Below, in pieces: positions 4,102-30,387 of a DNA stretch of 50,111 bases (position 1 is its first letter; each line of letters starts with the position of its first letter). Made by a program: the position numbers and the translations under genes. The notes under the pieces are model-generated. The model made no database searches. It was not told the DNA's origin and saw nothing but the letters and a program-made list of their open reading frames with translations. Source of the stretch: an uncultured Verrucomicrobia subdivision 3 bacterium (lineage in GTDB: Bacteria; Verrucomicrobiota; Verrucomicrobiae; Limisphaerales; UBA11358); assembly GCA_903847285.1 (NCBI GenBank), contig CAINDH010000239.1, positions 1-50,111 on the forward strand. Reading direction: 5' to 3'.

Positions 4102-4126
4102 GGATCGTAGGCTGAAACGAAACAAG

Positions 4127-4522: not shown

Positions 4523-4650
4523 TTTTGAATTTCAACACGGCATGAATAGAAAGCAACGCAACCACCGATGCGTGAAGGTTTAGCAGCCGGGGAATTTTTC
4601 TTCAACTACTACTCAATCAGGCTTCAATGTCGGAAGCTGATGTTTCGGGT

Positions 4651-4797
4651 GCCGCATCAGCGCCCATCGGCGGATAAATAAAACCAGCGGACGGTTGCCC
4701 GTCCGCTGGTTGAATTGAAGCGGCTGATTAAGTCCGTCAGGTAAAACTTGTCGGTGTATTCCTTGACTATGCGGTCGGTGGTGAACTGCGGCACGAG
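4651..4797 (-). repeat. Direct repeat, left copy: displaced 3' end of glgP plus its terminator
   Basis: This 147-bp stretch matches 30241-30387 without gaps, with 7 mismatches (about 95%). On the minus strand it encodes the last residues of glycogen phosphorylase (LVPQFTTDRIVKEYTDKFYL), the stop region, the terminator hairpin and about 25 bp beyond it. The stop codon itself is altered here (AAGTAA has become GGACTTAA). The right copy is part of the intact glgP. The repeat ends 5 bp from the stop codon of the esterase gene at 4803, so the island begins immediately next to it. This is what a gene-tail attachment site looks like, or a relic of a second glgP. Confidence 0.9.
4682..4711 (-). terminator. 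Copy of the glgP intrinsic terminator
   Basis: It is a perfect 13-bp inverted repeat (AACCAGCGGACGG / CCGTCCGCTGGTT) with a 4-base loop, followed on the minus strand by TTTATTTAT. It sits about 90 bp after the stop of the esterase gene at 4803, so the displaced terminator can now end transcription of the island's long minus-strand block. Confidence 0.8.
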
Positions 4798-4802
4798 GGG
4801 TC

Positions 4803-6359
4803 TTACCATGCGTCTGTTCGGAACGGCGAAGCGGGAAGACCTGCGCCATTGAAGAGATTGCATTTGGGATTATCCGCCCAGCCGTAGCGCACGGCCAACG
4901 GCGATTTCACGTCGGGACTCGAAATGACCACTTGCTCGCCTTCAATACGCGCTTTGCCCCAATGCCATTCTTTATCCACACCCGCGATGACGAATCCTTG
5001 TAGCTCGCCGTCCTTCGCCAGCATACCGCCATCGGTGTGCTTGAAGGAGATGATGATTTTATCATCGCTGATTTTTTGTCCGGCGGGCAACGGGCCGGAG
5101 AAGGTGATTTTATCACCATACACTTGCGCCCGCGCCCAAAGCCCGAGCCGATAACCCACGGCCTGTTTGTTCTTCGGATGGATGTTGTCCGCATCGCCGA
5201 TATCGATGGCCACGGCCATGCCGGTGTTCGTCACCGCGAGCGATTTCAACATGCCTTCGCGCACTCTTGCCCAATGACTGACGGGGCAGGGGCTGTTGGT
5301 ATAGGTCCGGTAATTAGCCAACTGCACCCATGCGAACGGGAACTCGCCCTGACCCCAACGCTCGCGCCAGTCTGCGATGAGCAACGGAAGCTGGTATTCG
5401 TAAAGCTGGGCAAAGCCTTCGCGCCCGCTGTTCTCGCCCTGATACCAAATGACGCCGCGAATTGCGTAGGGAATAATCGGCGCGATCATGCCGTTGAACA
5501 GATTGGCGGGATAATTTTTATGTTCGCGCGGAGGCACCGGCTTCTCGGGCGCATAGCCGGCGGGTTTGCCCTCGGCTACGCGCTTGGCGGAATTGGTCTT
5601 CCACGCGGCATACTGCTTTTCGTATTGCGCCTGCGCTTTGACCGGGTCGAAGGGTGCGCGAAGTTTGGTCGCCCATTCCGCAAACACGGGTGCGAGTTCT
5701 TTCTTGCCTTCCTGTTTTTCCAAGCTGGTCCAGGCTTCAATCGGCGTCGCGCCCACCGAGCCGTTGATGAGGCCAACGGGCACGCCAAGCTTTTGGTGAA
5801 GCTCTCGGCCAAAGAAGTAGGCCGTCGCGGAAAAGCCGCTCACCGTTTCCGGGCTGCAAAGAACCCACTCGCCTTCGCAATCTTTCTGCGGCGTGACGGT
5901 TTCATGACGCTTCACGGTAAACATCCGGATCTGCGGAAACTTAGCCGATACTTTTTCTTGCTCCAGATCGCGAACGCTTTTCACCCACATCGCCATGTTG
6001 GACTGGCCTGAACCCAACCAGACTTCGCCGACGAGAACATCGTTCACGGTGATTTTGTTTTTACCGCTGACCACCAGCGTCAACGTATTCGTCGCCGAAA
6101 ATTTATCCAACTTCACGCTCCACTTGCCCATCGCATCCGCGGTAGTTGTCTTGGTTTGTCCTTGGATGCTGACCGTGACCGCTTCACCCGGTTCGGCCCA
6201 GCCCCAGGCGGGAACGGCAGCGTCGCGTTGCAACACCATGTGATCGGAGAAGATTGCCGGTAGCTTCACATCCGCGCAGGCAGTGACGGCGGTAATTGAA
6301 ACCAAAATTCCAAGCGCGCAGATCAGCGCGCCCGGAGTGTTCGTTCTCAGTTTATTCAT
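4803..6359 (-). CDS. Sialate O-acetylesterase-type carbohydrate esterase (SASA family), secreted
   Basis: This is a 518-residue hydrolase with an N-terminal signal peptide (hydrophobic core about residues 10-29, ending near ACAD). It then shows the hallmarks of the SASA family: LPAIFSDHMVLQRD, the catalytic-serine motif GSGQSNMAMW (about residue 118), GSVGATPIEAW, WYQGENSG, and a C-terminal NLFNGAGLPASPFRTDAW that is normal for a complete protein. The family removes acetyl groups from sialic acids or, in soil and gut polysaccharide loci, from plant or microbial glycans; here the latter is more likely because no sialic-acid genes are seen. It is the last gene of the long minus-strand block. 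Its stop codon lies directly beside the 147-bp repeat, whose terminator probably serves it. Confidence 0.88.
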   Translation of the reverse strand: MNKLRTNTPGALICALGILVSITAVTACADVKLPAIFSDHMVLQRDAAVPAWGWAEPGEAVTVSIQGQTKTTTADAMGKWSVKLDKFSATNTLTLVVSGKNKITVNDVLVGEVWLGSGQSNMAMWVKSVRDLEQEKVSAKFPQIRMFTVKRHETVTPQKDCEGEWVLCSPETVSGFSATAYFFGRELHQKLGVPVGLINGSVGATPIEAWTSLEKQEGKKELAPVFAEWATKLRAPFDPVKAQAQYEKQYAAWKTNSAKRVAEGKPAGYAPEKPVPPREHKNYPANLFNGMIAPIIPYAIRGVIWYQGENSGREGFAQLYEYQLPLLIADWRERWGQGEFPFAWVQLANYRTYTNSPCPVSHWARVREGMLKSLAVTNTGMAVAIDIGDADNIHPKNKQAVGYRLGLWARAQVYGDKITFSGPLPAGQKISDDKIIISFKHTDGGMLAKDGELQGFVIAGVDKEWHWGKARIEGEQVVISSPDVKSPLAVRYGWADNPKCNLFNGAGLPASPFRTDAW

Positions 6360-6378
6360 AACAATATCGGTTGGTTAA

Positions 6379-7206
6379 TCATGCTGCGCGATACGCTTCC
6401 CCCACGGGCGTGAGCGTTCCGTCGTCATTGAACAAAGCGCATGGGCCGAGCGGGGCGCTGTCCGGCTTGGCTGGAAACCAGGCGTAACGCTCGACAAAAC
6501 TGCAAGCATCCAGTTGCGGGAACAGTTGCTGGATAAACTGAACCACCTGCTCGGGGCGATATTTATTTTCCGCGCGGGTTTTGGCCGCCCAATCGCCGAC
6601 GGCGAATTCAGTGATCCACAGCGGACGGCCAAACATTTCGTGCACGGTCTGGAGGCGCTTCATCAACGCTTCGGCGTTTGGTCCACCGTAGGAGTGCACG
6701 CCCACGGCATCCACGCGCAACTGGCGTTCCTCCACCCCCTTCATGAACGCCTTCATCCAGTCCTTGTCAGGATGCACGCAACTCGGACTGACCAACCGGA
6801 GGCCGGTCGCCATCAGTTTGGGCCACACGTCGAGGGCTTCCTCGACCGTCATGTTGCCCTGTTTCGCCTGATCCGGCTCATTGAGACCGAGCAGTTCCTT
6901 GTAGCCAGCCTGGCGGAGTTGCATGCCCAGTTCGGTGTAGGAATCGCCCGGTTTAGCGTTCCAAACCATCGGAATAAATTCCACGCCCGCCGGGATATTT
7001 TCCGGCGGCACGCGGTTCCAAGAATAAAACCAACGTGCGCCACTCAACCGGAGCTTTTCGCGCCACAGCTTATCTTTGGTTCCCATGCCGATGCCGCGCT
7101 TGGCTAGAAGCCGCGAGCTGATTGGCGAAGTGGAAGTGGCGCAACCCGGTAACAGCGTTCCCGCCGAGGCCGCCAGTGCGAGTTGAATAAAATTTCTGCG
7201 ATTCAT
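6379..7206 (-). CDS. GH128-type glycoside hydrolase (beta-1,3-glucanase family), lipoprotein
   Basis: This 275-residue protein is a compact asl1-like/GH128 TIM barrel. The predicted acid/base lies in LLGLNEPDQ and the nucleophile in LWITEFAVGDW, both in the right order and spacing. GH128 enzymes cleave beta-1,3-glucans. I placed the start at MNRRNFIQLALAAS, where an Arg-Arg pair, a hydrophobic stretch and a lipobox-like LLPGC form a Tat/lipoprotein signal; the longer open frame upstream encodes no signal and overlaps the next gene's end. The product is probably anchored outside the inner membrane. Its neighbours are two esterases. The barrel is paralogous to the one in the 1078-residue protein at 12671-15907. 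Confidence 0.82.
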   Translation of the reverse strand: MNRRNFIQLALAASAGTLLPGCATSTSPISSRLLAKRGIGMGTKDKLWREKLRLSGARWFYSWNRVPPENIPAGVEFIPMVWNAKPGDSYTELGMQLRQAGYKELLGLNEPDQAKQGNMTVEEALDVWPKLMATGLRLVSPSCVHPDKDWMKAFMKGVEERQLRVDAVGVHSYGGPNAEALMKRLQTVHEMFGRPLWITEFAVGDWAAKTRAENKYRPEQVVQFIQQLFPQLDACSFVERYAWFPAKPDSAPLGPCALFNDDGTLTPVGEAYRAA

Positions 7207-7247
7207 AATTGTGATTTTGTTTGTTGTTCTAGATCGAGTTTGAATGG

Positions 7248-7958
7248 TTAAAACTGTTGCCGTGTCGCCCGCCTTGGCAAGGCCTCCGGCACGGCGAGCA
7301 TGTTCGTCAGCGCGGCGAACCACTTAGCCGCCATTTTCTTGGCGCCGAGGGCGTTGGGGTGGACGTGGTCGCCAATGGTGTCCGTGCGCCAGTCGAAACC
7401 GTCCGCCATGTTTACGCCGATGACCGGAGATTCTGCCGTGGTCAAACGCGTCGGGAGTTTGGCAAGTTCCGCGTTCAGTTCCGGGAGATATTCATACTTC
7501 GGAAGTTTGCCGCTGGGAATCACCTGCGCGACCAGCACGATGACTTTTGGATTCACGCTGCGCGCCTTGCGGATCATATTTTCTGTCGCGGCGATGATTC
7601 CGTTTACCGGCGCTTCGGTGTTGGTGTGATTATGGCCGGAGTGAATCAAAATAATGTCCGCAACATTCGTGCGAAAATTTTTCTCCAGAGCACCCGCGAG
7701 AAACTCCGCGTTCTTGCCGCTATAACCTTCATGCCGTAACGACCCGGCTGGCGACGCGCTCATGCGCGAGCAGGTGAATTCCACGCGATAGCCGGCCGCC
7801 GCCAGTTTTTCCAAAAGCGGATAGCGGTAGTTGGAAAAGGTTTTTCCGCCTTCCGTTATGGAATCGCCCACCGGGAGGATGCGGTAGACTTTTTGCTCCG
7901 CTGCCAATGCCGCCGACCAAACGGCGAACGCCAGCTGGCTAATGAAGATCGGCTTCAT
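7248..7958 (-). CDS. Secreted SGNH/GDSL-type esterase
   Basis: This 236-residue hydrolase has a signal peptide (MKPIFISQLAFAVWSAALAA). The SGNH blocks are visible: block I GDSITEGG with the nucleophile Ser (about residue 33), a Gly in the second block, block III as HSGHNHTNT in place of GxND, and block V as DHVHPNALG with the catalytic Asp and His. The layout resembles acetyl-xylan or carbohydrate esterases such as CE3, so it probably de-acylates a polysaccharide. Its ATG overlaps the stop of the repaired GH16 frame by ATGA, meaning translational coupling to that gene. The C-terminal tail (about 15 residues, Arg-rich) is not part of the fold. Confidence 0.8.
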   Translation of the reverse strand: MKPIFISQLAFAVWSAALAAEQKVYRILPVGDSITEGGKTFSNYRYPLLEKLAAAGYRVEFTCSRMSASPAGSLRHEGYSGKNAEFLAGALEKNFRTNVADIILIHSGHNHTNTEAPVNGIIAATENMIRKARSVNPKVIVLVAQVIPSGKLPKYEYLPELNAELAKLPTRLTTAESPVIGVNMADGFDWRTDTIGDHVHPNALGAKKMAAKWFAALTNMLAVPEALPRRATRQQF

Positions 7959-8712
7959 TTTTTCTCGTAGAAACGAACGTAATCATATATTGCCGCTGCC
8001 GGAAGTCTGGTGTCATCCACCGCCTTGGTCTTGCCGAGTTGTGAGGCGATCGTCGTGAGCCAGATATGTTGATCGCTGTGCGCGAAATTCGTGACCGCAA
8101 CGGTCTGCACGAGTTTACCCTCGAAATAATATTTCACCGTGTCCGGCGTGAACTCGCAGCCGAACGTATGGAAGTCCGCCGAAAGATCTGGCGTGGTCAC
8201 ACCTTTACCACCCATTGAAACATGCGGCTGGGATTCCATTTATGAACATTCACGCCGTAGTGCTTAAGATTCACCGAATCGTTTTCGCAAACGTCCAGTT
8301 CCTGCGCCGAAGCCGTCGGGCCGGTGCCGCCGTTGCCATCGTGCTTCATCATCCAGAACGACGTGTGCCAGCCCGCGCCAGGCGGCACTTTGAAGTGTGA
8401 TTCGTAATAGCCATATTTGAAAGCTTGTTTGCTAATGACACCCGCACCGGTGTAATGCTTGTCGCCCGCGTCCTCTTTCTTCACAGCGAGAAAAATTTTC
8501 CCGTCGCGCACCGACACATTCGCGGGCGACTGCGTGCTCCAATGTTTGCTGTCGGTGCGAAAGACCCACTTGTTCGTGTCGAGTGAACCGCCATTGAATT
8601 CGTCTGACCACGCAAGCCGGTAACCCGGCGGCGGGAGTGCAATCGGCAAATCAGTTTGCGCCCAAGCCGAGATGCCCAGCGAGGTGAAGGTCAAGAGAAC
8701 GATCGTTTTCAT
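7955..8712 (-). pseudogene. GH16 endoglucanase-type hydrolase broken by one frameshift
   Basis: Two frames together give a full GH16 of about 252 residues. The first part (8712 down to about 8213) carries a signal peptide (MKTIVLLTFTSLGISAWA), WSDEFNGGSLDTNKW and the active-site motif ELDVCE (residues 138-143). The second part carries TPDLSADFHTFGCEFTP and ends YDYVRFYEKK. The switch falls at the CCC run at 8211-8213 on the plus strand. A fourth base there would give a smooth FQWGGKGVTTPDL junction. The repaired stop overlaps the next gene's start as ATGA, which argues that the frame was recently functional or that a base was missed in sequencing. GH16 enzymes cleave beta-1,3/1,4-glucans or galactans; I cannot assign the subfamily. 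The start was chosen for the signal peptide rather than ATG 8736. Confidence 0.8.
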
Positions 8713-8744
8713 TTTGATATTAAAATTTTGATTCAAAAGTAATT

Positions 8745-11165
8745 TCAGAAATAATCAAACTGCGCGGTGGCTTTCGTATCGGCGGAGGCCGTCACGCGCA
8801 GCCAATACGCGGAGAACGCGGCGGGGAAATGGTGCTCGAGTTTTTCGCCAGGCTTCACTTGGAGTGACGTCACTTCGCTCCATTTGCCAGTGCCGGTGAA
8901 GTCCGCTTCCACCTTGAAAGTAACGGCCTCCTTGCCCGCGTGCGACAGCGTGAGGCGTTTGTGGTCATAGCCGGTGGCGAGATAGGCGTCGCTCGGAACA
9001 TTCGCCTTTACGCTGGTTTCCAGCCACGGCCCACCGTGGCCGCGCGGCTTGCCGAGTTGCCACAGATCGTCCACCGCGCCCGCCCAGAGCGCGCACTTGC
9101 CATCGTCGCTGCGGACGATGTGGTCGCCCTTCGCTTCAGTGGCGACACCGCTCAACACGAGCAACCCGCGATAGCTCGCGAAATCGTGGATGCGGCGATT
9201 GTGCGTGGCAATGGGCCGGAGTTTGATGAAACCGCCAGCGTTCGCGGCGGGCAGCTCATAGAATGTGCCGCCGACATTTAGCAAGTTGCGCTCGGTGCAA
9301 ACTTCGCGGCAGAGACGGTCATTCCCCAATTCTCCGGGTTGATCCAGCGCTTTGTCACCTTTTGGCAGACGCCAGCGTTTGCCGGTTTCATCGGTGTAGA
9401 CCATGGAGGCTGCGTCAGCAGTGATGAGCGGGGCGGCAATGGGAACGTTTTTCCGAACCCATGCTGCGCCAGCCGGGTCGTTCACGCGACGGAGATTCAA
9501 ATCGCCGTCGAGGTCGTAACAATTCGTTTCGCCCGCGCCGCCTTCCGGCACGAAGCGAAGCGTCTTGAAATCTCCGCCGCGCGCAAACAGCAATCCGGCG
9601 CTGGCGGATATGTCAGCGGGCGTCGCAATCCCAGCGAAGCTGTCAGCGGTCTTGGTCGTTCGCTTGTCCTCGGCGCGATAGTGGAAGAACGCCGTGGCCT
9701 TCAGCGCGTCGCGGTCGGGCGTGAGGCGAATCCACGCGCCGATTTCCTGAGCAGAAAATTCCAGCCATGCGCTGCCCTGCGCTGGAACGGAAACGTCGCG
9801 CAGCTTTGTCCAATGGCCGTCGCCCTTCACGTCCACTTCCAACGTGAAGGAAATTTTCTTCGCGCTGTCGTGCGCCAGAAAAAGCGAGCGATGCGCGAAA
9901 CCGGAGAACAGAAACGGCTCGCTCGCTACGCCAGCCTTCACGTCGTCGTTCAACCAGACTGCGCCGCGACCGAGCGCCGGACCGAAGGAGTCCACCGCGT
10001 CCGGCCGGACGAACCAGAGATTCGATTGCGATTTGCCCGGGCCGGAAAGATTGCCCTTGAGCCGGTCCTTGTTGAGGAACTCGTCCTTTGCAGTGTCGTC
10101 GCAGCCGAAGACGAGGCGTTCGTTCCAACGGCAGAAGTCACCGATCACTTTCAGATAAGTCGAGCGCGGCGCAATTCCAGCGGTGTTCGCTACAGAAAAT
10201 GTTTTCGGAAATTTCCAGAACTCGCCGTGCATCGTCATCAGCAGCGAATCTTCGCCGATGTCACGAATGCGCGGCCACTCGGTGTTCCAGCCGTGCGCAC
10301 CGTCGTAGCAGTGCGACGTCTTCGGCAGGCGGAACGAGTGCCATTTGCCGCCGTCGAGCAGCATGAGGATGAGCGAGCGGTTGTCCCAGCCGATGCTCCA
10401 AAGACGATCATCGCCGGGCGGATTGCCCAGGATTCCGCCCGGGCCGGTGACGTCGGTGAACTGGTTGCGCCGGACGATGCTCCATTGGTCAGCCTTGCCA
10501 TCCCACTCGGCGAGGACACCGCTCGGAACCGTCGGGTCTTTGAGTGCGGCGGACGCGTGATCGCCGTTGTTCGCATAAACATAGCGGCCTTGCGCGGAAT
10601 AAAAACCTTTGCCGTGATAGCCGGGTAGGTCGGCCTTGCGGCCGGATTTCATCTGCTCGTCGGCCCAGAGTTCCTTCACGGCGAGTGTGTGAACGTCAAC
10701 TTCGTAAATGCCTTCTTCCATTGTGGCAAAAACTATTTTGTTCGTCGGCTCGGTGAGATGCCGCGCGAGGCCGGTGAGGCGGCCAAACATATTCGTCCAG
10801 GAAATCACGCGCACGTTGCCGTTCGTGCCGATGACATACGGCCCGATGAAAAGTTGCTCCGATTCGCGGTGAAACATGCGGTCCGCCGGCGTGCCGCCGA
10901 TGCTTTCGGGACGGATGATCTGCTCCAGCGCGGGGGTGATTTCGTAGAGCTTGTCGGACGAGCCGGTGGGTTTGTGCGGCGCGTAGGAGATGACCCAGAG
11001 GCGGTCCGCCCACGGAACGACCGCGCCCGTGCCGCACTCGCCTTCGTTGTTGAAGGTCGCGAGCGAAGGATAAATGCCGGAGATCTGTGGCGGCGCGGCG
11101 CTGATAGGCGACGCAACGACCAACAACAAGGCAACGAGCTTGGATAATTTTTGGAGCATAATCAT
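8745..11165 (-). CDS. Unrecognised secreted 806-residue protein with a duplicated beta-sandwich-like module
   Basis: I do not recognise this family. A signal peptide (about residues 1-23) is followed by a region rich in short strand-like motifs (about 25-395), as in beta-propellers. A module of about 95 residues at 400-496 occurs again at 701-806: both copies share W-L-x(2)-(S/D)VKA, (S/A)G(F/Y)xH(R/K), VDxxGxGxW and KATA-x-F-(H/D)-Y. Between them is a second strand-rich stretch (about 515-690). The duplication suggests two similar halves, each a propeller-like part plus a sandwich cap that could bind sugar. The start at 11165 overlaps the transporter's stop as ATGA, so the two are coupled; a longer open frame upstream only shadows the transporter. 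Its position between transporter and GH16 suggests a role in the same polysaccharide pathway, for instance binding, lyase or hydrolase activity; no catalytic motif is evident. Confidence 0.75.
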   Translation of the reverse strand: MIMLQKLSKLVALLLVVASPISAAPPQISGIYPSLATFNNEGECGTGAVVPWADRLWVISYAPHKPTGSSDKLYEITPALEQIIRPESIGGTPADRMFHRESEQLFIGPYVIGTNGNVRVISWTNMFGRLTGLARHLTEPTNKIVFATMEEGIYEVDVHTLAVKELWADEQMKSGRKADLPGYHGKGFYSAQGRYVYANNGDHASAALKDPTVPSGVLAEWDGKADQWSIVRRNQFTDVTGPGGILGNPPGDDRLWSIGWDNRSLILMLLDGGKWHSFRLPKTSHCYDGAHGWNTEWPRIRDIGEDSLLMTMHGEFWKFPKTFSVANTAGIAPRSTYLKVIGDFCRWNERLVFGCDDTAKDEFLNKDRLKGNLSGPGKSQSNLWFVRPDAVDSFGPALGRGAVWLNDDVKAGVASEPFLFSGFAHRSLFLAHDSAKKISFTLEVDVKGDGHWTKLRDVSVPAQGSAWLEFSAQEIGAWIRLTPDRDALKATAFFHYRAEDKRTTKTADSFAGIATPADISASAGLLFARGGDFKTLRFVPEGGAGETNCYDLDGDLNLRRVNDPAGAAWVRKNVPIAAPLITADAASMVYTDETGKRWRLPKGDKALDQPGELGNDRLCREVCTERNLLNVGGTFYELPAANAGGFIKLRPIATHNRRIHDFASYRGLLVLSGVATEAKGDHIVRSDDGKCALWAGAVDDLWQLGKPRGHGGPWLETSVKANVPSDAYLATGYDHKRLTLSHAGKEAVTFKVEADFTGTGKWSEVTSLQVKPGEKLEHHFPAAFSAYWLRVTASADTKATAQFDYF

Positions 11166-12556
11166 CGGGAAGACTTTTGTGGACCCAGCCTTTGCATACC
11201 GCCAAATTTCAGCAGCAGCCACGCGATCGGATGCAGGAAGGCCATGATCAAAAACCATTGCGCGTAGCCGTGGCCTTGCACCATTTCCAGCAACGGGCCA
11301 AAGACCGACTTGATCGCGTGGTCGAGAAATCCATCCGGCTTGGTGGACGGTCCAGAAACCATCGTCGCCACAATCATGTTCATGATGATGCCGCCGATAG
11401 TGCTGCCCGTGGCGACGACGCTGAACACTGTGCCGAGCGAATGTTTTGGCACGACATCCACGACGAGCGAACTGATATTGATGAGCCACGCGAGCGACGC
11501 CAGCACGGTGCAAACCGTGAGCGTCATGGCGACATTCAAACCTGCAGCGTGCGCGATGAACGGCGATAGCGGCATCAGGCAGGCGCAACCCAGCATCACC
11601 CACAAACGACTATCAGCGGGTGCTGTGCCGCGTTTCACAAACTGGCCGGACAACCAACCGCCCAGCAAGCTGCCCACGCCCGCTGCCGCGTAGATAATCC
11701 AGGTAATTTCCAACTGCTCCTGAGAGAGATGGCGGTCAGCACTCAAGTATTTTGGAAACCAGAATTGATAAAAATACCAGACGGGATCGGTGATAAGCCG
11801 GCCCAGCAGCAAGAGCCACGTGCCGCGAAAAAGAAAAACCTGTTTCCATGACCACGCGTTCGAGGCTAGCGAGTCGGCGGGGTTTTCGGCGGCAGCGGAT
11901 TCTTCGATCAGCTTGAGTTCATCAGTGGTGATTTGTTTGCTCTCGCGCGGTTGCCGGTAAAAACACAGCCACGGAATCAGCCATGCCAACCCGGCGAGTC
12001 CCGTCAGGATAAACGCGAGGCGCCAACCCGTGCCGTGGCCGAGCCAGTTCGCGATGACGGGCATCGTTTCCTGATACGCGTGCGTCGCCAACGGGATGAC
12101 GAGATACGGCGCAACGGTCGCCCCGATGGTTGCGCCCATGGTATAGAAGCCAATGGCCAGCGCGCGTTCCTTGGCGGGAAACCATTCGGAAACGACCTTG
12201 GACGCCGCCGGCCAGACACCGGCTTCGCCGAGGCCGAGAAGAAACCGAAATCCACACAGCGACTTCATGCCCTGCGATGCCGCGGTAAGCATGTTTGCTA
12301 CCGACCACCACAAGACGAACAACGCCATGCTGGCGCGTGTGCCGAGCTTGTCTGCGATGCGACCGGAGATCAGATAGGCGATCGTGTAAGCGACGAGGAA
12401 GAGGTTAACGACGTTCGCATAATCATGGTCGTCCATTTGCAAATCGCTTTGGATGGTAGGCGCGAGCGCGGAGAGCGTTTGGCGATCCACATAGTTCAGC
12501 ACCGCCGCTCCGAAAAGCAGCGCCACAATCCACCAGCGAAATCCTTTGATCTTCAT
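11162..12556 (-). CDS. MFS sugar (acid) transporter, anion:cation symporter type
   Basis: The 464-residue protein has 12 hydrophobic segments in the MFS pattern. The N-terminus (NYVDRQTLSALAPTIQSDL, with GRIADKLGTR after the second segment) is the hallmark of the anion:cation symporter branch that contains hexuronate, glucarate and sialate transporters (ExuT/GudP-like). By analogy it would import a mono- or small oligosaccharide, possibly acidic, by proton symport across the inner membrane. It is the only obvious importer of the island; no SusC/D or ABC genes are present. It starts the block MFS, unknown 806-aa protein, GH16, SGNH, GH128, SASA, most of which are tightly spaced. A 15-bp palindrome lies about 75 bp upstream. 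Confidence 0.85.
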   Translation of the reverse strand: MKIKGFRWWIVALLFGAAVLNYVDRQTLSALAPTIQSDLQMDDHDYANVVNLFLVAYTIAYLISGRIADKLGTRASMALFVLWWSVANMLTAASQGMKSLCGFRFLLGLGEAGVWPAASKVVSEWFPAKERALAIGFYTMGATIGATVAPYLVIPLATHAYQETMPVIANWLGHGTGWRLAFILTGLAGLAWLIPWLCFYRQPRESKQITTDELKLIEESAAAENPADSLASNAWSWKQVFLFRGTWLLLLGRLITDPVWYFYQFWFPKYLSADRHLSQEQLEITWIIYAAAGVGSLLGGWLSGQFVKRGTAPADSRLWVMLGCACLMPLSPFIAHAAGLNVAMTLTVCTVLASLAWLINISSLVVDVVPKHSLGTVFSVVATGSTIGGIIMNMIVATMVSGPSTKPDGFLDHAIKSVFGPLLEMVQGHGYAQWFLIMAFLHPIAWLLLKFGGMQRLGPQKSSR

Positions 12557-12630
12557 GAATGAGCGGTGGTCAGGTGTGGTAAGAGCTCTCGAGGTTTAAA
12601 GACAAGGGCAGGCGATTCATCGCGGTCTCA

Positions 12631-12645
12631 TTCCATAATATGGAA
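12631..12645. promoter_or_regulatory. Perfect palindrome upstream of the transporter, candidate operator
   Basis: TTCCATAATATGGAA is a perfect 7+1+7 palindrome in the 113-bp gap between the GH128 protein's stop and the transporter's start, 75-89 bp before that ATG. It looks like a dimer-binding operator. I did not find a second perfect copy in the other island gaps, so the role is inferred from position and symmetry only. Confidence 0.35.
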
Positions 12646-12670
12646 CGCTTCGACTGGAAAAAACATTTAT

Positions 12671-15907: not shown

Positions 15908-15921
15908 TTTCCGGAATGCTT

Positions 15922-16753: not shown

Positions 16754-16771
16754 AAATTCAGGCACGGCATT

Positions 16772-18649: not shown

Positions 18650-18692
18650 CTAAAAATTTTAGTGCGTATGTGTTGTGCTGGGCGGCGTTAAA

Positions 18693-19790: not shown

Positions 19791-19836
19791 AGTTGTTGTG
19801 GAACTTGGCCCGCATTTCGGACTTTTCAAGCATGAG

Positions 19837-20808
19837 TCAATTCAAATCCTTCAGCGCGCCGGAGGCATTGGGCTTCGCCGATCGTGATGGTTTTGGAATT
19901 GGCACAACCGTATTTCGCGCTGCCGACTCCGCAGCTTGATATTTCGGATGCTGGTAAACGCGAACGTAGTCGAACATCACTGCCCCAGGCAGCTTGGAGT
20001 CGTCCACCCAGCGGTCACCCTTCAATGTGCTGGCGAGCGAAGTGAGCCAGATGTTCATGTCATCATGCGGGAAGTTGCTCGATCTCTCCTCTCTGGCCAA
20101 CCGGCCATCGAAGTAAAACCGAATAATTTCCGGCGTAAATTCGCAACCCCAAACATGGTAGTCTGCCGACGTGTCCGGCGCATCTTCGATGACCCAGCGA
20201 CCCGCGTTCCACGTCTGGCCATTTTTGGAGTCAGGTATCTTATTGATGATGCCGAAACTGTAGTAATTCGGATCGCCTCCGTCCTGCTCGCAGAAGTCCA
20301 GTTCGAGCAGCGCCCGCTTTCCTTGCGTTGCACCTGGCGTCCCGTTTTTCTGCGCCCAGAAGGACGTGTGCCAGCCTTCAATCCCTGGCGTCTTGAAACG
20401 GGCTTCATAGTAGCCGTAGACAAACGTTTCCCGGCTGATGACGCCACCACCGGTGTAATCTTTCCCACCAGCGGACTCCTTGCGCAGGGCGATTTTCAGA
20501 GTGCCGTTGTTCACCGATATGTTTTCCGGCTGCTGCGTGCTGAGCAATTTGCTGCCGGTGCGATAGTCCCACCGGTTCGTATTCAGGGAAACCCCATCGA
20601 ACTCATCGTTGAAGACCAGTTGATAACCGGGCGGCGGCAGCGGCGTCACTTCCTTGGCAAGTTTCACCGGGATATGAATCTTGCTGTGAAACTTGGGCCG
20701 TTGATTTGCTTTTTCGGGCGATGCGGGCAGAGACTCAGCGAGCGTCAACTGACAAGTCAAACAGGCAAGGCCCATTGCCAGCGGCCAAATGAAAATATTG
20801 GGAAGCAT
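19837..20808 (-). CDS. GH16 endo-hydrolase, intact
   Basis: This is the only GH16 copy in the window that is both complete and catalytically intact. Signal-like N-terminus from ATG 20808 (MLPNIFIWPLAMGLACLTCQ), a charged linker (about 28-57), then the jelly-roll with FNDEFDGVSLNTNRW, the active-site motif ELDFCE (E169 and E174), YHVWGCEFTPEIIRFYFDG and the last strand FDYVRVYQH. A Ser/Lys/Ala-rich tail of about 35 residues follows, unlike its paralogues. GH16 enzymes hydrolyse beta-1,3/1,4-glucans or related galactans. It follows the oxidoreductase gene by 85 bp. Confidence 0.88.
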   Translation of the reverse strand: MLPNIFIWPLAMGLACLTCQLTLAESLPASPEKANQRPKFHSKIHIPVKLAKEVTPLPPPGYQLVFNDEFDGVSLNTNRWDYRTGSKLLSTQQPENISVNNGTLKIALRKESAGGKDYTGGGVISRETFVYGYYEARFKTPGIEGWHTSFWAQKNGTPGATQGKRALLELDFCEQDGGDPNYYSFGIINKIPDSKNGQTWNAGRWVIEDAPDTSADYHVWGCEFTPEIIRFYFDGRLAREERSSNFPHDDMNIWLTSLASTLKGDRWVDDSKLPGAVMFDYVRVYQHPKYQAAESAARNTVVPIPKPSRSAKPNASGALKDLN

Positions 20809-20893
20809 AATAGCTGATAGGAATTCGGTTGGGTGGAGGGGTTTAAACAATTGATCAGCTTTCGATGTTAGTTATTCGCGCCGCGTATCATGC

Positions 20894-23299: not shown

Positions 23300-23354
23300 A
23301 AACTTTTATTCTTTGATGCCCGCCAAAACCGGGCGTGTTTTTCAGATGCTGGCA

Positions 23355-23385
23355 CACGTCTCGAACAGTTACGAACTATGGTCGG
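23355..23385. promoter_or_regulatory. Candidate regulator site: CGAAC direct repeat one helical turn apart
   Basis: In the 171-bp gap between the divergent oxidoreductase and regulator genes, CGAAC occurs at 23362 and again at 23372, exactly 10 bp apart. AraC/XylR proteins bind directly repeated half-sites, so this could be the autoregulatory and activating site. The motif is short and unsupported by other copies. Confidence 0.22.
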
Positions 23386-23470
23386 GATGTGTTTCCAATA
23401 AAGCTAGCGCAGGCACGGAACGAAAGGTAGCCTGCCTTGCGTCTATTTTCTAATAAATCACGCCAACCCC

Positions 23471-24661
23471 ATGAGTGGTGCCCGCAAACTAAAAACCACA
23501 TTGAAACTCGCCAAAATTCCGCGCGTGGCGGTGCTGGTTGATACTTCGAGCTCTTGGGGCCGGCAGATTGTCGCGGGCATCCACGACTACATCCGCCAGC
23601 ATGAACGCTGGCAGATGTTCATCGAGACGCGGGGCGTTCAGGAGGAATGGAGCGTTCCGGCTGGCTGGCGGGGCGACGGCATCATTGCGCGCATCAGCAA
23701 TCCGCGTCTGGCGGCTGATCTCAAAGCCCGCCGCATCCCAGTGGTGAATGTTTCGGGAATCCAAATACCCAGCATAGATTTTCCGCGCGTCAGCACCGAC
23801 TTGAATGCCACCGCCCGACTCGCGGCCAAACATTTTCTGGATCGCGGTTTCAAAAGCTTTGCCTACTTCAGCCTGACGGGATTGAGCTATGTTTTTCAAC
23901 TGCAGGAATCCTTTTCGCGGGCCGTGAAAGCGGCGGGCGGCGAATGCAACATCTACACGGAAAAACCGGCCCAAGGTGCGGAGATGGACTGGAATTCCGA
24001 CCTGACGCAATTGGGACAGTGGCTGAATTCGCTGCCCAAACCGGTCGGCTTGCTCACCTGGAATTACAGCAGCGGCCGGGAAATCATGTTCGCCGCCGAG
24101 CTGGCCGGCTTGCTGGTCCCGGAAGAAGTCGCTGTGCTGTGCGGCGGCGATGACGACCTGCTGTGCGAGGTGTTGCAGACGCCCATGTCCGGCATCCGGG
24201 TGGCTAGCGAACAGATTGGCCATGAAGCCGCGCGCGTGCTGGATGATATGATGCGCGGCGGCAAAGCGCCGAAAAAACCGATTTTTTTCCCGCCATCCAA
24301 AATCATCACCCGTCATTCCACGGACACCCTGGCCATCCACGACGCCACCATGGTCAAGGCCCTCAATCATATCCGGCAAAATGCGAACAAGCCGCTGCAA
24401 GTGTTTGAAGTCTGCCGCGCTGCAGGAGTGTCGCGGCGGGTGCTGGAACGGAAATTTATCCAGGGATTGGGCCGCTCTCCCGCCACCGAGATCCGCCGCG
24501 TCCACATGGAACGCGCCAAACAGTTGCTGGCGGAAACACAGATGTCCATTCCGGATGTGGCTGAGGCCTCGGGTTTCACCTCGCCCGAATACATGGCCAT
24601 TCGTTTCCGCCTGGATCTCAAGACCAGCCCGTTTCGTTACCGCAAGGAAGTCCGAAAATAA
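23471..24661 (+). CDS. XylR-type transcriptional regulator (LacI-like sensor plus AraC DNA-binding domain)
   Basis: The 396-residue protein starts with a LacI/periplasmic-binding-like sensor (about residues 15-285: VAVLVDTSSSWGRQIVAGI, GDGIIARI, FPRVSTDLNATARLAAKHFL, VLCGGDDDLLCE) and ends with two AraC-type helix-turn-helix motifs (about 290-394: LQVFEVCRAAGVSRRVLERKF and SIPDVAEASGFTSPEYMAIRF). This is the XylR arrangement: sugar binding by the first domain controls DNA binding by the second. It is the only plus-strand gene of the island and is divergent from the oxidoreductase, so it is the natural local switch. The ligand is unknown. It has no membrane segment and should be cytoplasmic. 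Confidence 0.88.
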   Translation: MSGARKLKTTLKLAKIPRVAVLVDTSSSWGRQIVAGIHDYIRQHERWQMFIETRGVQEEWSVPAGWRGDGIIARISNPRLAADLKARRIPVVNVSGIQIPSIDFPRVSTDLNATARLAAKHFLDRGFKSFAYFSLTGLSYVFQLQESFSRAVKAAGGECNIYTEKPAQGAEMDWNSDLTQLGQWLNSLPKPVGLLTWNYSSGREIMFAAELAGLLVPEEVAVLCGGDDDLLCEVLQTPMSGIRVASEQIGHEAARVLDDMMRGGKAPKKPIFFPPSKIITRHSTDTLAIHDATMVKALNHIRQNANKPLQVFEVCRAAGVSRRVLERKFIQGLGRSPATEIRRVHMERAKQLLAETQMSIPDVAEASGFTSPEYMAIRFRLDLKTSPFRYRKEVRK

Positions 24662-24720
24662 AATCGGGCTAGCCGACCGCGTTCGCCGTTCCAAGGAATG
24701 TAATACGCCCGCAAACAATT

Positions 24721-25548
24721 TTACTGCGACTGACCGCCGTAGAAATAAATATCCAGACCGGTGAATTGCATTTTTGGTTGCGATGAATATTTCACAAATT
24801 TAACCCACTCGCCGTGGCCATCCATGTAGCCTTCGTTGCCTCCCGCCGGTTCGCTGCCGGCGCCGCCTTTCGGATGATTGACACCTCGGATGTTGAAGTC
24901 AGAGCCACGCGCCCAATCATTCAGATACTTCCGGTTGAGATCTGTCCATAACACCGGATAGTAGGGCCGATCCGTGGACTTCATGGCGAAGACCGGCAGA
25001 TGCGCGCGAATGTTATCGCCGCCCGGCAACGCTCCGTTGTTTGGATAATAGGTGCCTACCTGCGCTGAACTATTATAACTGGCTTCACCGGGAAAATAAA
25101 AATAACCCATCACGCTCGACAACGTGACCGTGACCCCGTCCGAAAAATACCAGAACGTATTATCGGTCTTGTTCCAATCAGGATTGGACGGGCAATAAAA
25201 TGAGGTTCTGGGCACTCGGTAGTCGTTCACCATTGAATTGCGGAACGTTGCGCTCATTTTATATGGCGTGGTGTTGCCAAGGCTGGCATAGCGTTCCTGA
25301 TTATCGCCAACATACATCGTTGAAGCCAAGGTCATCTGTCGGATGTTATTCAAACTGGATATGCGCTTGGCCCGCTCCTTGGCTGACGACAGCGCGGGCA
25401 ACAGCATCGCGGCCAGAATCGCAATGATGGCGATGACCACGAGCAGTTCAATCAAGGTGAAGGCGCGCCGACGGGAGACAGGTGGGCGACCGCCTGATAA
25501 CGGAGTTTTGACGGAGATTTTCATATTGCTTTTAATGATGGCTTTCAT
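24721..25548 (-). CDS. Type II pseudopilin-like protein with H-DG tail
   Basis: The N-terminus carries a basic leader ending [20 protein letters not shown]: a class III (prepilin) signal with the expected Glu at +5 and Ala rather than Gly at -1. A long hydrophobic helix and a soluble domain of about 220 residues follow, with a late [10 protein letters not shown] segment typical of the prepilin-type H-x9-DG family common in Verrucomicrobiota and Planctomycetota. The leader would be cut by a prepilin peptidase such as the one at 34466-35581. These proteins are abundant, and most have no known role. It follows the inactive-looking GH16 gene by 3 bp, so it probably shares its transcript. ATG 25524 (MKISVKT...) is an alternative start. 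Confidence 0.8.
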
Positions 25549-25551
25549 TTC

Positions 25552-26400
25552 TCACTTAGCCGGCGGAGTGCCGTTGGTTTTTGTATAAATGCGGATGTAG
25601 TCGCACTGGGCTTCCTGGGGCAAGGCGGAGTTATCCACCTGCGGGGTGCCGCCCAAATGCGAGGCGATGGAGCTGAACCAGACGTTCATTTCGCCGGGCG
25701 GAATCCGGGCGACGTCCACAGTCTGAACCAGTTTTCCATCCAGATAAAACTTGGCGGTGGCCGGAGTGAACTCACAGCCAAAGACGTGAAACTCCGCCGC
25801 CAAATCGGGTGAGGGCAGCCGCTGATAGCCCAAGGTCTCGGTCGGCAGCGGATTGTATTTGTTGAGCGCAATGGTGTAGCTCCGGTGGTCAATGGAATCA
25901 TTCTGCGCCACATCAATTCCTTGGGTGGCTTCCTGGGCATCGGTGGTGCCGGAGCCATCGTGCTTCATCAGCCAGAATGAATTATGCCACCCATCACCAG
26001 CGGGCATTTTGATGCGTGCCTCGTAGTAACCATACTTGAATGCGGGCCGACTGATGATGCCCGCGCCCGAATAATTCTTACCGCCAGCTTCCTCTTTTTT
26101 CAGGTTGAGGCGCAAGAGGCCGTCCTTGACGACGACATTTTCCGGTTTCTGGGTGCTGAGGTTTTTGCTGTCCGTGCGGTAGGTCCATTTGGCGGCATCC
26201 AGCGTGGTGCCATCAAATTCATCGCTCCAGGCCAGCGTGTAGCCGGGTAACGGGGCGGAAATGGTTTTCTCTACCGCAACTTGAGCCGCAGCCCCGGACG
26301 GCAGACAAAGCAACTGGGCGGCGATGAGCGCGGCCACGGATGCGACGGGTTGAAATAGCCCGTTGGGAACGACGGAGTTTTGCAGGCGATTTATTTTCAT
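25552..26400 (-). CDS. GH16-fold protein lacking both catalytic glutamates
   Basis: Overall it is a normal GH16: a long signal region (to about residue 39, from ATG 26400), WSDEFDGTTLDAAKW, YGYYEARIKMPAGDGWHNSFW, FHVFGCEFTPATAKFYLDG and a complete last strand CDYIRIYTK. But the active-site motif E-(I/L)-D-x-C-E of its three neighbours reads G161-I-D-V-A-Q166 here: the nucleophile Glu is Gly and the acid/base Glu is Gln. I checked this on the DNA (GGA ATT GAT GTG GCG CAG); it is in frame and not a shift. It should therefore not hydrolyse, and may be a beta-glucan-binding protein or decoy. It lies between the autotransporter-strand protein and the pseudopilin, a group of possible surface proteins. 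Confidence 0.85.
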   Translation of the reverse strand: MKINRLQNSVVPNGLFQPVASVAALIAAQLLCLPSGAAAQVAVEKTISAPLPGYTLAWSDEFDGTTLDAAKWTYRTDSKNLSTQKPENVVVKDGLLRLNLKKEEAGGKNYSGAGIISRPAFKYGYYEARIKMPAGDGWHNSFWLMKHDGSGTTDAQEATQGIDVAQNDSIDHRSYTIALNKYNPLPTETLGYQRLPSPDLAAEFHVFGCEFTPATAKFYLDGKLVQTVDVARIPPGEMNVWFSSIASHLGGTPQVDNSALPQEAQCDYIRIYTKTNGTPPAK

Positions 26401-26433
26401 GTTGGATAAGGTGGTGGATGCCCCAAACGCCAA

Positions 26434-29400
26434 TCACGGCGTGACTAACCGGAAGAATACCGAGCCATTGGCCGGGTTGATCTGGATGGTGGCCGGATTG
26501 GTGGTGCCGGTGAAATAGTTTCCCCAGTTCGTGCCGAGGCCGGTGTTGAGGGCGTTGGTCTGCGACTGGAGGCGATAGGAGCCGCCGGGTGTCCAGGAGA
26601 TTTGCAATGTATTCCCGGACTGGATCACACTTATAGACGGCGCGACCGGGAGCGAGGTGATGGTCAACTGGCCGGTGGCCGGGTTGAAGCTACCGGTGCC
26701 GCCGGGCAGAATCGCCACGCTGGCGGCGTTGGCAAAAGTTCCTGACGGCGAGGTGGCGCTGACGAGCTGGAAGACCTGGCCGTTGGTGAAAGGCACGGAT
26801 CCCTGATTGGTCACCACCAGGGTGCCGCCATAATTGACCACGCTGGCGACCAGCCGGTCGGAGAGGCTGTTGGTGGCGTCAATCTTGAAGTAAGCGGCGC
26901 TGCCGGAGTTCAGGGTCACGGTGCTGGTATTGGTCAGCACGCCCAGGATGGTCGGAACGCCCGGCGACAACGTGCCGCCGCTGTTGACGGTGATGGTGCC
27001 GGCGACGGTAGCGGCGGTGTTCGCCGATAGAGTCGCTCCGGAGTTCACGGATACGGCGGTGTTACCCAGTGTGGTGGCGAGCCGTAGTTCGCCTCCGTTG
27101 ACCACGGTATTGCCGGTGTAGGTGTTGGCGGCAACGGAATTCAAACTCTGGCGACCGGCGCCTTCCTTGACCAACCCGATCGGCTGACTGCCGTCCTGAA
27201 TTGCCGATACGGCAACGTAGCCGTTCGTGCCGACGGTGTTGATGGTCAACGTGCTGGCGACGCCGCCATTGTTAACAATCACGCCCGGCGATCCGCCGAC
27301 AAATTCCAGCAAGCCGCTGATGTTCTGGTTGAAGCCATTCAGGTCAACCGTGCCCGTGCCCACCAGAAGCAAGTTGGTTGAGAAGCCGTTGGCAACTCCT
27401 AGTTTTACGACGGCACTGCTGCCGCAGAAAGTCGCCATGCCACCGCAGGTATGTGCGGAATTCGCAATCGTGATTGAGCCGCCGTTGCCCGGACGGCAGA
27501 GCATGACATAGTTGCTGCCGTTGTCGGTGACCGGCCCGGCCACGGTGAGGTTGCCATTGATGTCTGTGCCAATACGGCCATTGTTGGCGGCTAAGACAAT
27601 CGGTCCAGCCCAGACGTTGGCCGACGAAGGATCAATGCTCCCGCGCAATTGTCCGAGCGAGCCGCCGAAGCCCGCGCCGTCGAGGGTGATGGTTTCTCCC
27701 GTGACCGTGGTGCCAGCGCCAAAGCCATCACCAATCAGCACCGTCCCGGTGCCCGTCACCGCTGTGACGCCAGCGGTGGAGCCGAGGGCGCCGCCGTTGT
27801 CCAACTGCAAAATCCCGTTGTTGACGGAGACCACGCCGGTAAAGCTGTTGCTGAGGCTCAAGAGCGTGGTGCCAGTCCCGGTCTTGGTGATGCCATTGAC
27901 GCCTGTGATCTGGCCGACGCCGGTCAAGGTCACAGCGGTGATGTTGGAGTGGTTCAAAACCACTTGCGCAGGTTTGACATTGTTCGTCAGATTTACCATG
28001 TAGAAACTCCCGCCTGCATCCGTGAAATTTACTACGTCACCCACGCCGGATGGATACTCTTGATACGCGTTCGCGCCCGAGTTCCAGTTGAGCGCGCCGT
28101 TGGTAGCCCAGTCGCTGCTGCCGGCGGTCCAGATCAGGGATTGGACCGAAAGGGTGACGTTGAGGCGCACATCATTGGGGCCATCAACCAACGTGGCCTG
28201 CAAGCCCGCCGGCAACGTGCCAAGGACGAAGGAGCCGCCGCCCGAGCGGTTGCCGCTGCTGGTATAATCAATGAGCTTCACGACGCCGGGTGTCATGCCC
28301 GCGCCGCTAGTGATGTTGATAACGTTCGTGCCGCTGATGTTTAGCGTAGCGGTCTTGATGACCGCCGTGGTGGCCGTGGGAACTGCCGTCACGGTGCCGA
28401 GCGCCAGATTGATGATGGCGTTCGTCACGCTCGTGACTGAATTCGTCCACGAGCTGTTGTTGGCCGTAATGGTGTTGCTAACGCCATTTGCCAAAGTCAA
28501 AGCGCTGCTGCTCATGGGCAATAAGTATGACAGACCGCCGCCATTCACCACGGTCGCGCCCGTGTAGGTGTTGATCTGGCCCAAAGTGAGGAGGCCAACG
28601 CCATTCTTGGTGAGACCGCCACTGCCGGCGTTGAGCAATCCTTTGGCAACGGTGGCGTCAAAGCCAGCCGTATCAATGGCTGCGCCGCCGGATTGAACAT
28701 TAACCGTGAGATTGGTTCCCGCATCGAAAATGAAAGGTGTTCCCGGACTTGCGATATTGGCTCCAAGCACGCGCAACGTGCCGCCGTTAAAGTTCAAGAA
28801 CGAAGCCATCTGGCTGGTATCGCTATCCCGCGCAGAAATGTTTCGCGTGCTCAACGTGCCACCCGCATTGAGATTAATCGTGCCAGTGCATTGCGCGCCA
28901 GCTTCCCCAGCCGTAAAACCAAAAAACGTCCGTTCAATTGTGGCGATAGAACCGCCACCGATGGTGAAGGTGCCTTGGGCAAAATTGGTTCCCCCGTTTG
29001 TGGAGCCGCCGCGATACGGCACGCACAGGACGCCGAATCCGCCCCCGTTGGCGTTGGTGTAAATGAAGTTGCCTCCGGAAAGTGTCAGCAAGCCTGAACC
29101 GCTACCGCTCGCAGCCGGTGATCCAATTAGACAGCTATCGGCCGTGGTGCCATTCATGATCACAAGGGTGCCGCTAACAACACTGACCGCGCCGGTCGTG
29201 CCGCTGCCGCTGCCAATGACAAAGCCGCGCGTGGCAACTCCCGCGTTGTTAAGAATAGTCGTGCCCATGGAGGCGTCATAAGTTGCTGTCGCCGTCCGGT
29301 TGACGTTCGTGCCAATGTTCAAACGCACATCCGCCGTGGTGGCATTGGTCTTAACCGTGCCGCTGTTCCAGTTGTTCGCCGGCGACCATGAAGTTGAGGT

Positions 29401-29547
29401 GAGCCACGCGTCAGTGGCATTGGTATAATTCAACGTGGTGTTGACTGCGTGGACGGACTTAGGAGTTCCAAGGCACAGGCCAAGCGCTATGAACCCGAAG
29501 CTGACCGCGGCGAGTGGCTTATGATATTTTACGACTGGGGTTTTCAT
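26434..29547 (-). CDS. Large secreted protein with autotransporter-associated strand repeats and tail module
   Basis: A 1037-residue protein with a signal peptide (about residues 1-34, AVSFGFIALGLCLGTPKSVHA). It is rich in Gly, Thr, Asn and Val and contains at least three strand repeats of the autotransporter-associated type: GLTKNGVGLLTLGQINTYTG, GITKTGTGTTLLSLSNSFTG and GLVKEGAGRQSLNSVAANTYTG, each followed by a (V)VNGG/NNG strand. It is probably a beta-helix. There is no beta-barrel translocator. Instead the end carries the tail module YRLQSQTNALNTGLGTNW...NGSVFFRLVTP shared with three other proteins of the window. It may act as a surface adhesin or scaffold. It is the first gene of the short block with GH16-like and pseudopilin genes. 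Confidence 0.82.
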   Translation of the reverse strand: MKTPVVKYHKPLAAVSFGFIALGLCLGTPKSVHAVNTTLNYTNATDAWLTSTSWSPANNWNSGTVKTNATTADVRLNIGTNVNRTATATYDASMGTTILNNAGVATRGFVIGSGSGTTGAVSVVSGTLVIMNGTTADSCLIGSPAASGSGSGLLTLSGGNFIYTNANGGGFGVLCVPYRGGSTNGGTNFAQGTFTIGGGSIATIERTFFGFTAGEAGAQCTGTINLNAGGTLSTRNISARDSDTSQMASFLNFNGGTLRVLGANIASPGTPFIFDAGTNLTVNVQSGGAAIDTAGFDATVAKGLLNAGSGGLTKNGVGLLTLGQINTYTGATVVNGGGLSYLLPMSSSALTLANGVSNTITANNSSWTNSVTSVTNAIINLALGTVTAVPTATTAVIKTATLNISGTNVINITSGAGMTPGVVKLIDYTSSGNRSGGGSFVLGTLPAGLQATLVDGPNDVRLNVTLSVQSLIWTAGSSDWATNGALNWNSGANAYQEYPSGVGDVVNFTDAGGSFYMVNLTNNVKPAQVVLNHSNITAVTLTGVGQITGVNGITKTGTGTTLLSLSNSFTGVVSVNNGILQLDNGGALGSTAGVTAVTGTGTVLIGDGFGAGTTVTGETITLDGAGFGGSLGQLRGSIDPSSANVWAGPIVLAANNGRIGTDINGNLTVAGPVTDNGSNYVMLCRPGNGGSITIANSAHTCGGMATFCGSSAVVKLGVANGFSTNLLLVGTGTVDLNGFNQNISGLLEFVGGSPGVIVNNGGVASTLTINTVGTNGYVAVSAIQDGSQPIGLVKEGAGRQSLNSVAANTYTGNTVVNGGELRLATTLGNTAVSVNSGATLSANTAATVAGTITVNSGGTLSPGVPTILGVLTNTSTVTLNSGSAAYFKIDATNSLSDRLVASVVNYGGTLVVTNQGSVPFTNGQVFQLVSATSPSGTFANAASVAILPGGTGSFNPATGQLTITSLPVAPSISVIQSGNTLQISWTPGGSYRLQSQTNALNTGLGTNWGNYFTGTTNPATIQINPANGSVFFRLVTP

Positions 29548-29989
29548 GTGATCAGGGTTGGTGAGTTTTTAATGATTTAATCTCGGCCGCTACGGCGCTG
29601 GAAATAGGTTTTGCAATTTTTAGAATTGGGCTTGAAAAGACACTAACACACCTCTTTGGGACCACAGTAGTCGTGTTTGCGTTTAATTTCTTATGTTCTG
29701 CGCCAGACCATTGGCGCAAGAGAAGCTACGTCTGGGCAGTCTCTCCACCAATCAAAATGCACGGTTGAGATCCATTCAATCACCGCAGTAGAATCAGCCT
29801 CTACAGTCGTCGTATAGGCACGCTACTTCACGGCAGCACTTGTTGAAATTTGTAAATGGTGCGGCAATCTAGTTTCGCGTTCCCCAATTATCTTCTGGCA
29901 AGTGCCAACTGCCTGCCCTTAGAAGAACCCCAAGGCCACCAAATAATTTGGCCGATTCGATATGAGATTAAGTTTTTAGTTTGGACGAA

Positions 29990-30052
29990 AGTCGGTTGCC
30001 ATTGGTTGTCAGAAAAGACTTTTTACACCCGATTGAGACTGATTTGCGGGGA
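29990..30052 (+). repeat. Diverged intergenic repeat, copy 2; rest of the 29548-30240 gap
   Basis: Partner of 256-318 (about 73% identity over 63 bp, beginning AGTCGGTTGCCAT). The gap of nearly 700 bp around it (29548-30240) is AT-rich and has no convincing gene: the 104-residue plus-strand ORF at 29856-30170 has odd composition and spans this repeat. The promoter of the autotransporter-strand gene should lie near 29550-29700, but I see no clear motif. A hairpin at 30187-30204 is the other structure here. Confidence 0.45.
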
Positions 30053-30186
30053 TTGCAAACAAATGGCTTTGGAAACATTTTTCGCCATTTATTTAGAATT
30101 TTTTTTTTGGTTTTATAGCGTTTTCTTTGTGTCATCAGTCGTGTTTGATTCTTTCCCAACTGGACTTTGATTTTTTAAAACACAGC

Positions 30187-30204
30187 CCGGCGTTTTCACG
30201 CCGG
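30187..30204. terminator. Short GC hairpin in the island/backbone gap
   Basis: CCGGCGT and ACGCCGG form a 7-bp stem with a 4-base loop. Read on the minus strand, TTTTAAAAAATC follows about 8 bp beyond the stem. It could be a second terminator behind glgP or an extragenic hairpin; a direct role is uncertain. Confidence 0.35.
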
Positions 30205-30240
30205 ACTATGGTAAGTTGCTCCTGCGGAGCAGAAGCGGTC

Positions 30241-30387
30241 GCCGCATCATCGCCCATCGGCGGATAAATAAAACCAGCGGACGGTTGCCCGTCCGCTGGT
30301 TGAATTGAAGCGGCTGACTTACTTCGTCAGGTAAAACTTGTTGGTGTATTCCTTGACCATGCGGTCGGTGGTGAACTGCGGCACGAG
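30241..30387 (-). repeat. Direct repeat, right copy: native 3' end of glgP
   Basis: This copy is continuous with the intact phosphorylase gene: it covers the last 23 codons with stop (30319-30387), the terminator hairpin and the 31 bp beyond it. It matches 4651-4797 with 7 mismatches and no gaps at an offset of 25,590 bp. The mismatches include the bases around the stop codon, which is functional here. This copy marks the right edge of the island. Confidence 0.9.
30272..30301 (-). terminator. Intrinsic terminator of glgP
   Basis: A perfect 13-bp stem (AACCAGCGGACGG / CCGTCCGCTGGTT) with a 4-base loop is followed on the minus strand by TTTATTTAT, 17 bp past the glgP stop codon. An identical hairpin is at 4682-4711. 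Confidence 0.88.

Follow-up and report, generated by a model that had tools for sequence, protein, structure and literature searches.

Copies of a gene's 3′ end on either side of a DNA block have been described for several kinds of integration and rearrangement. In Escherichia coli, the site-specifically integrating prophage e14 is bordered on both sides by 163 bp of the 3′ end of the metabolic gene icd, equally oriented, one copy completing the gene and the other persisting as a pseudo-tail, as far as the account in PMC6379469 goes. Cis-mobilizable elements (CIMEs), which derive from integrative and conjugative elements or integrative and mobilizable elements, carry direct repeats at a gene 3′ end and a cargo that includes metabolic genes, and lack recombination genes; the classical CIMEs covered in that source measure 1.2-13 kb (PMC7563491). 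In the amplification of cat in Acinetobacter baylyi, illegitimate recombination gives tandem duplications that span 12-290 kb, with 0-5 bp of identity at the join point (PMC9997567). Here we report the analysis of a 50,111-nucleotide stretch of an uncultured Verrucomicrobia subdivision 3 bacterium (contig CAINDH010000239.1; hereafter the window), in which the 3′ end of the glycogen phosphorylase gene glgP occurs on both sides of a 25.6-kb block of sugar-degradation genes.

The locus resembles e14 in that the 3′ end of a metabolic gene lies at both ends in the same orientation, over 147 bp, with one copy completing the gene and the other left as a pseudo-tail; unlike in e14, neither an integrase nor a phage gene was found, and an empty site is not known. 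As in CIMEs, repeats flank the block and no recombination or transfer gene was found in the open reading frames (ORFs) scanned. We know of no CIME at glgP. With the Acinetobacter baylyi duplications the locus would share a unit of tens of kb and a join at 0-5 bp of identity (PMC9997567), but of the supposed extra copy no more than 147 bp remain here, and the duplication is one that we infer.

The repeat pair at the glgP 3′ end

The features on which the argument turns are the following.

4651..4797, minus strand: left copy of the repeat, a degenerate glgP tail of 22 codons with its stop lost, an intact terminator and 31 bp
30241..30387, minus strand: right copy, the tail of the intact glgP with terminator and 31 bp
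30319..32490, minus strand: intact glgP, an alpha-glucan phosphorylase of 723 amino acids (Pfam; NCBIfam TIGR02094), 91% identical to L001 and 90% to L002
4803..6359, minus strand: SASA-family carbohydrate esterase (Pfam), last gene of the cluster, with a complete C-terminus FRTDAW-stop (FRTDDW... in homologs)

The two copies align over 147 bp free of gaps with seven mismatches (95.2% identity), both on the minus strand and 25,590 bp apart, which confirms the repeat as the sequence-only reading had described it (about 95% over 147 bp, same orientation, same spacing). A BLASTN comparison of the window with itself returned the pair at E = 9.6e-62, which rules out a chance repeat; with 152 bp taken in, the identity is 94%. 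The repeat is a true scar of an old DNA rearrangement. It comprises the last 22 sense codons of glgP with the stop, the terminator and 31 bp past the stem. The right copy does belong to an intact glgP, as had been proposed, and the left copy, said to touch the stop of the last island gene, lies 5 bp from the SASA stop. The claim that both copies are the glgP end holds for the tail codons, the terminator and the 31 bp, which all occur twice, but fails for the stop codon, which is lost in the left copy (TK-stop reads TDLISRF...).

Mismatches fall at repeat positions 30, 46, 64, 66, 68, 70 and 138. Four of the seven stand within 7 bp at the glgP stop, a clustering equally tight in 0.5% of random placements, and a template switch is possible there. 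Outside the edges, the two sites did not clearly exceed randomly drawn window pieces in likeness (as high a score is reached by 5-53% of random pairs, the lowest share, 5-6%, being on the far side of the repeat), and in this comparison the edge at 4797/4798 is sharp. An extension of the homology into SASA, through a GCATGG common to both sites, was considered and is not above background. Truncation of SASA by the rearrangement is ruled out by its complete C-terminus: the end motif was seen in 16 of 20 homolog loci, in all 16 as FRTDDW, and 15 of these proteins end no more than two residues past it.

The terminator has a 13-bp stem which is intact and identical in both copies and lies on the strand of the cluster. 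Shuffled versions fold less well than either repeat copy (z -5.5 and -6.3), and the same holds for the end of glgP in L001 (z -3.2) and in L071 (z -5.1). On the minus strand (4651-4740 and 30241-30330), the terminator hairpin is also enclosed by a stem, GCCGC...GCGGC, which the far end of the repeat closes, so that the edge of the repeat coincides with the edge of the structure. Behind the right copy, at 30175-30240, there is a further hairpin motif, CCGGCGTGAAAACGCCGG, and similar stretches occur in G024 and G040.

The direction of change was read from relatives. A GlgP search of the genome collection gave 311 stretches, of which the best 80 were used (top match 91%); the set consists of relatives of other species, the nearest having GlgP at 90-91%. 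Verrucomicrobia subdivision 3 or Verrucomicrobiia stands in the titles of the nearest records, Limisphaerales in those of several others, and L071, with 87% GlgP, is titled Methylacidimicrobium. Among the 49 family genomes, GlgP matches at E ≤ 1e-100 occur in 46, including at least one that is just a 40% paralog. When the five coding mismatches were polarised against L001, L002 and L071, the left copy had changed at all five: at four, all three relatives carry the right-copy base, and the fifth lies in the stop codon, where L002 has TGA and the other two agree with the right copy. Since relatives have the right-copy base, the left copy is the changed one. Their likeness to the right copy stops at the terminator. 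Codon 4 of the repeat is CAG in both window copies and CAA in the three relatives, and the 4-fold sites of glgP differ from theirs by 38-43%; the common CAG at such divergence means that the copy is young and was made from the glgP of its own lineage. The duplication is thus younger than the split from the nearest relatives compared (GlgP 90-91%).

Origin of the left copy

The explanation that we tentatively place first, with somewhat less than even confidence, is that the left copy is a relic of the genome's own glgP 3′ end, produced by duplication or templated insertion. It would reflect homology-independent recombination within the lineage and not an attachment-site reaction. In the proposed starting state the cluster would already have been downstream of glgP. 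A 25.6-kb unit, from 4798 just behind SASA to 30387 in the glgP tail, would have been duplicated in tandem, and the join point would have put the glgP tail directly behind the SASA of the second copy. Such a join would explain why the relic begins directly behind SASA. Deletion would then have removed the first copy except for 147 bp, and the resulting structure would have needed no integrase. The same outcome could follow from one templated insertion that placed 147 bp behind SASA. Transcription of the catabolic operon may now end at the relic, and an untouched hairpin beside a decaying coding part would be accounted for in this way. In favour of this explanation count the sharp edges, the coding changes confined to the left copy, the complete SASA gene, the terminator stem kept in both copies and the lack of a recombinase among the ORFs scanned. 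As in a tandem-duplication remnant, the repeat stems from a neighbouring gene of the same genome. A literature search on short-patch double illegitimate recombination returned no paper. Our preference for duplication was reached largely because mobility genes were absent in what was scanned.

Several points weigh against this explanation. It calls for a pair of illegitimate events, or else for one templated insertion over 25 kb, none of them directly seen, and a gene 3′ end with its terminator in the same orientation is the pattern made by integrative elements. No relative is known with the cluster beside glgP: L001 has an EamA transporter, a Pel9A-like protein, GH28 and dnaX behind glgP, and L071 has a YjeF-type gene, a sensor kinase and a sulfatase. 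Judged from the loci compared, neither flank could be shown to be the ancestral neighbour of glgP. What follows glgP in 27 relatives is unlike both window flanks, and the left-flank genes (1-4650) were not seen downstream of glgP in relatives; a motif common to L003 and L071 behind glgP, tried as a guide to the ancestral flank, was no better than shuffles. In tetranucleotide make-up, moreover, distances of 0.31-0.35 set the PATR end (24800-29547) apart from the right flank. The rest of the cluster, as far as 24800, speaks for the explanation, its distances of 0.17-0.23 coming near the 0.15-0.18 measured inside that flank.

The sequence-only reading had taken the pair for the footprint of an integrative element. 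We consider it rather unlikely that the block is the remnant of such an element, which would have targeted the glgP 3′ end with a replacement tail, its integrase lost or its movement driven in trans as for a CIME, and that the left copy is the displaced host tail. The geometry suits it well, for an intact target and a displaced 3′ fragment are found in the same orientation, with the fragment on the correct side and within the 2-200 kb range of spacing. Configuration, orientation and length are also what Islander filters for, as described for tRNA-type genes (PMC4383910), and the repeat is about as long as the 163 bp of e14 in icd (PMC6379469). In the cited literature, protein genes are common island targets (PMC12884075) and integrase-less elements are known in the form of CIMEs (PMC7563491). 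The displaced tail decays and the gene is kept, as integration would have it, and L001 likewise has polysaccharide-type enzymes (Pel9A-like, GH28) behind glgP. The family is rich in tyrosine recombinases, with matches over the Pfam cut-off in 48 of the 49 genomes (1-42 each). Apart from this argument, three consecutive same-strand tyrosine-recombinase matches were noted in each of two relatives (G048:C74:10695-13056 and G016:C198:3203-5567), an arrangement like that of recombinase-in-trio elements.

Against integration stands the search for mobility genes. The main ORFs of the window were scanned with Pfam and the short gap ORFs were listed, one of their translations being included in the scan; no recombinase, relaxase, phage, replicon or transfer gene was found, and no integrase within or overlapping the block, so the earlier statement that no integrase is visible is borne out for the ORFs scanned. 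One weak IstB match does not count as evidence of a transposase, since the protein is a PhoH (E 2e-94 for PhoH), and RecO (42417-43058) has a housekeeping role in repair. Region 4500-29450 drew no megablast match from plasmid or phage records, a search for a tRNA or RNA-family target found none, and none of the recombinase matches listed lies on the contig of a GlgP ortholog. The cluster extends to 5 bp from the left repeat.

Relatives speak in the same direction. The same glgP target was not found in other genomes: no second long glgP tail was detected in the 49 family genomes (a tail was seen in 41, with further matches of just 22-27 bp, and for some genomes 18 first-look candidates were scored), and an own-tail test, for which 72 of the 80 loci extend far enough beyond glgP, gave just 24-36 bp matches in five loci. 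Repeats beside many unrelated loci had been named beforehand as a refutation; at the level of the family-genome search the repeat is not seen as a dispersed element, and its terminator 31-mer was absent from the viral contigs searched. In the wider order a 33-residue glgP tail matched at least 286 of 320 genomes. Short-frame GlgP matches were inspected in G170, G286 and G007, with G005, G012, G027, G031, G092, G094, G209 and G228 left out. The alignment of G170 spans the whole gene with one in-frame stop and the frame of G286 reaches the contig end. The closest to a counter-example is in G007 (L181:3041-6671), where another GlgP, at 65%, is followed downstream on its strand by a 206-residue GlgP end, 84% identical to that of the window. 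This end is not a near-identical repeat and is either a replaced gene or a false join; its start exactly at two N suggests the latter.

Of the integrative-element footprint there stands the 3′-end fragment, downstream, in the same orientation and opposite an intact gene. The evidence that the cluster is or has been mobile consists of the repeat pair, the mobile reading being otherwise unsupported, and the alternative named last in the sequence-only reading, recombination using a duplicated tail, does at least as well as integration. We regard as doubtful the more specific proposal that the cluster is an integrase-less, trans-mobilised island using the glgP 3′ end as attachment site, which would be a new protein-gene target in Verrucomicrobiota. 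A literature search combining glycogen phosphorylase, genomic island, integrase and direct repeats found no paper.

An assembly artefact, in which glgP-tail reads of a related strain were joined behind SASA, is improbable. The window may be a metagenome contig, one of its GH16 genes is broken and the truncated GlgP of G007 offers an example of a suspected false join; the left copy, however, has no stop, and its coding changes are non-silent or in the stop, unlike the working glgP of another strain. Arrival of the cluster on a circle carrying a glgP piece, fixed by one homologous crossover of Campbell type, would give the same repeats and geometry with no integrase, but it is very improbable, as the circle must already have held a glgP tail of the same lineage and the ORFs scanned included neither a replicon gene nor one for transfer.

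The block, its flanks and what the scar may tell

The block and its flanks contain the following features besides those given above (assignments by Pfam unless otherwise stated).

1..4650: left flank with a gene remnant, an Ig-repeat gene (484-3147) and a Yip1 gene (3253-4101)
6379..7323, minus strand: Glyco_hydro_cc glycoside hydrolase, nearest solved chain 6uaq_A
7248..7958, minus strand: GDSL esterase
7955..8736, minus strand: GH16 gene split over two frames (7955-8239 and 8197-8736)
8745..11603, minus strand: ORF of 952 amino acids whose listed start overlaps the MFS gene; one Pfam match under the cut-off
11162..12556, minus strand: MFS transporter
12671..15907, minus strand: Glyco_hydro_cc enzyme of 1078 amino acids with F5/8C and ricin-type domains
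15938..26433, minus strand: three GH16, GH2, a GH43/GH32-type (anhydro-galactosidase-like) enzyme, an FAD oxidoreductase, a 409-residue protein without clear family and an N_methyl protein
26434..29547, minus strand: protein of 1037 amino acids with PATR repeats, first gene of the cluster
29548..30240: stretch separating the glgP end from the cluster, with listed ORFs of at most 104 amino acids (ORF listing)

The cargo is an ordinary polysaccharide-degradation cluster. All annotated genes of the block are on one strand and include in total four GH16 (one broken, by either a frameshift or a sequence error), two Glyco_hydro_cc and two proteins without clear family; for the 952-residue ORF a solved relative was looked for and none was found. 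The closest solved relatives of the block enzymes include laminarinases, beta-galactosidases and anhydro-galactosidases. The label of a glucan-degradation locus therefore fits the laminarinase-like GH16 and the Glyco_hydro_cc enzymes, but not the beta-galactosidase-like GH2 or the anhydro-galactosidase-like enzyme.

Parts of the cluster recur elsewhere in the taxonomic order. The FAD oxidoreductase was found at E ≤ 1e-150 in 5 of 196 genomes, and sub-sets of neighbours occur in L165-L167 and L169-L171, the whole set being present in no fetched locus. More than one cluster gene was found in none of the 80 glgP loci (10 kb downstream of glgP is present in 36), and the few single matches are weak or partial. 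Homologs of Yip1 occur in 42 of the 49 genomes at 29-43%, each on a contig other than that of the GlgP ortholog.

The gene remnant at the left edge of the window (1-284) runs over two frames. A second, unrelated repeat pair, 255-301 / 29989-30035 (83%, E 2e-6), belongs to a dispersed intergenic element of ~110 bp with a conserved block GTCGGTTGCCATCGGTTGCCA...GACTTTTTACACCCCATTG and a distal CGCCCTTATTTTACAAT; eight more places were found in 7 of the 49 family genomes, and in the seven loci examined it has no consistent position before an ORF.

Taken alone, the repeat is a modest rearrangement scar. Integration and duplication, however, predict opposite arrangements in relatives, and a scar next to a catabolic cluster whose age and direction of change can be read offers a simple test of how such clusters move or change in copy number in Verrucomicrobiota.

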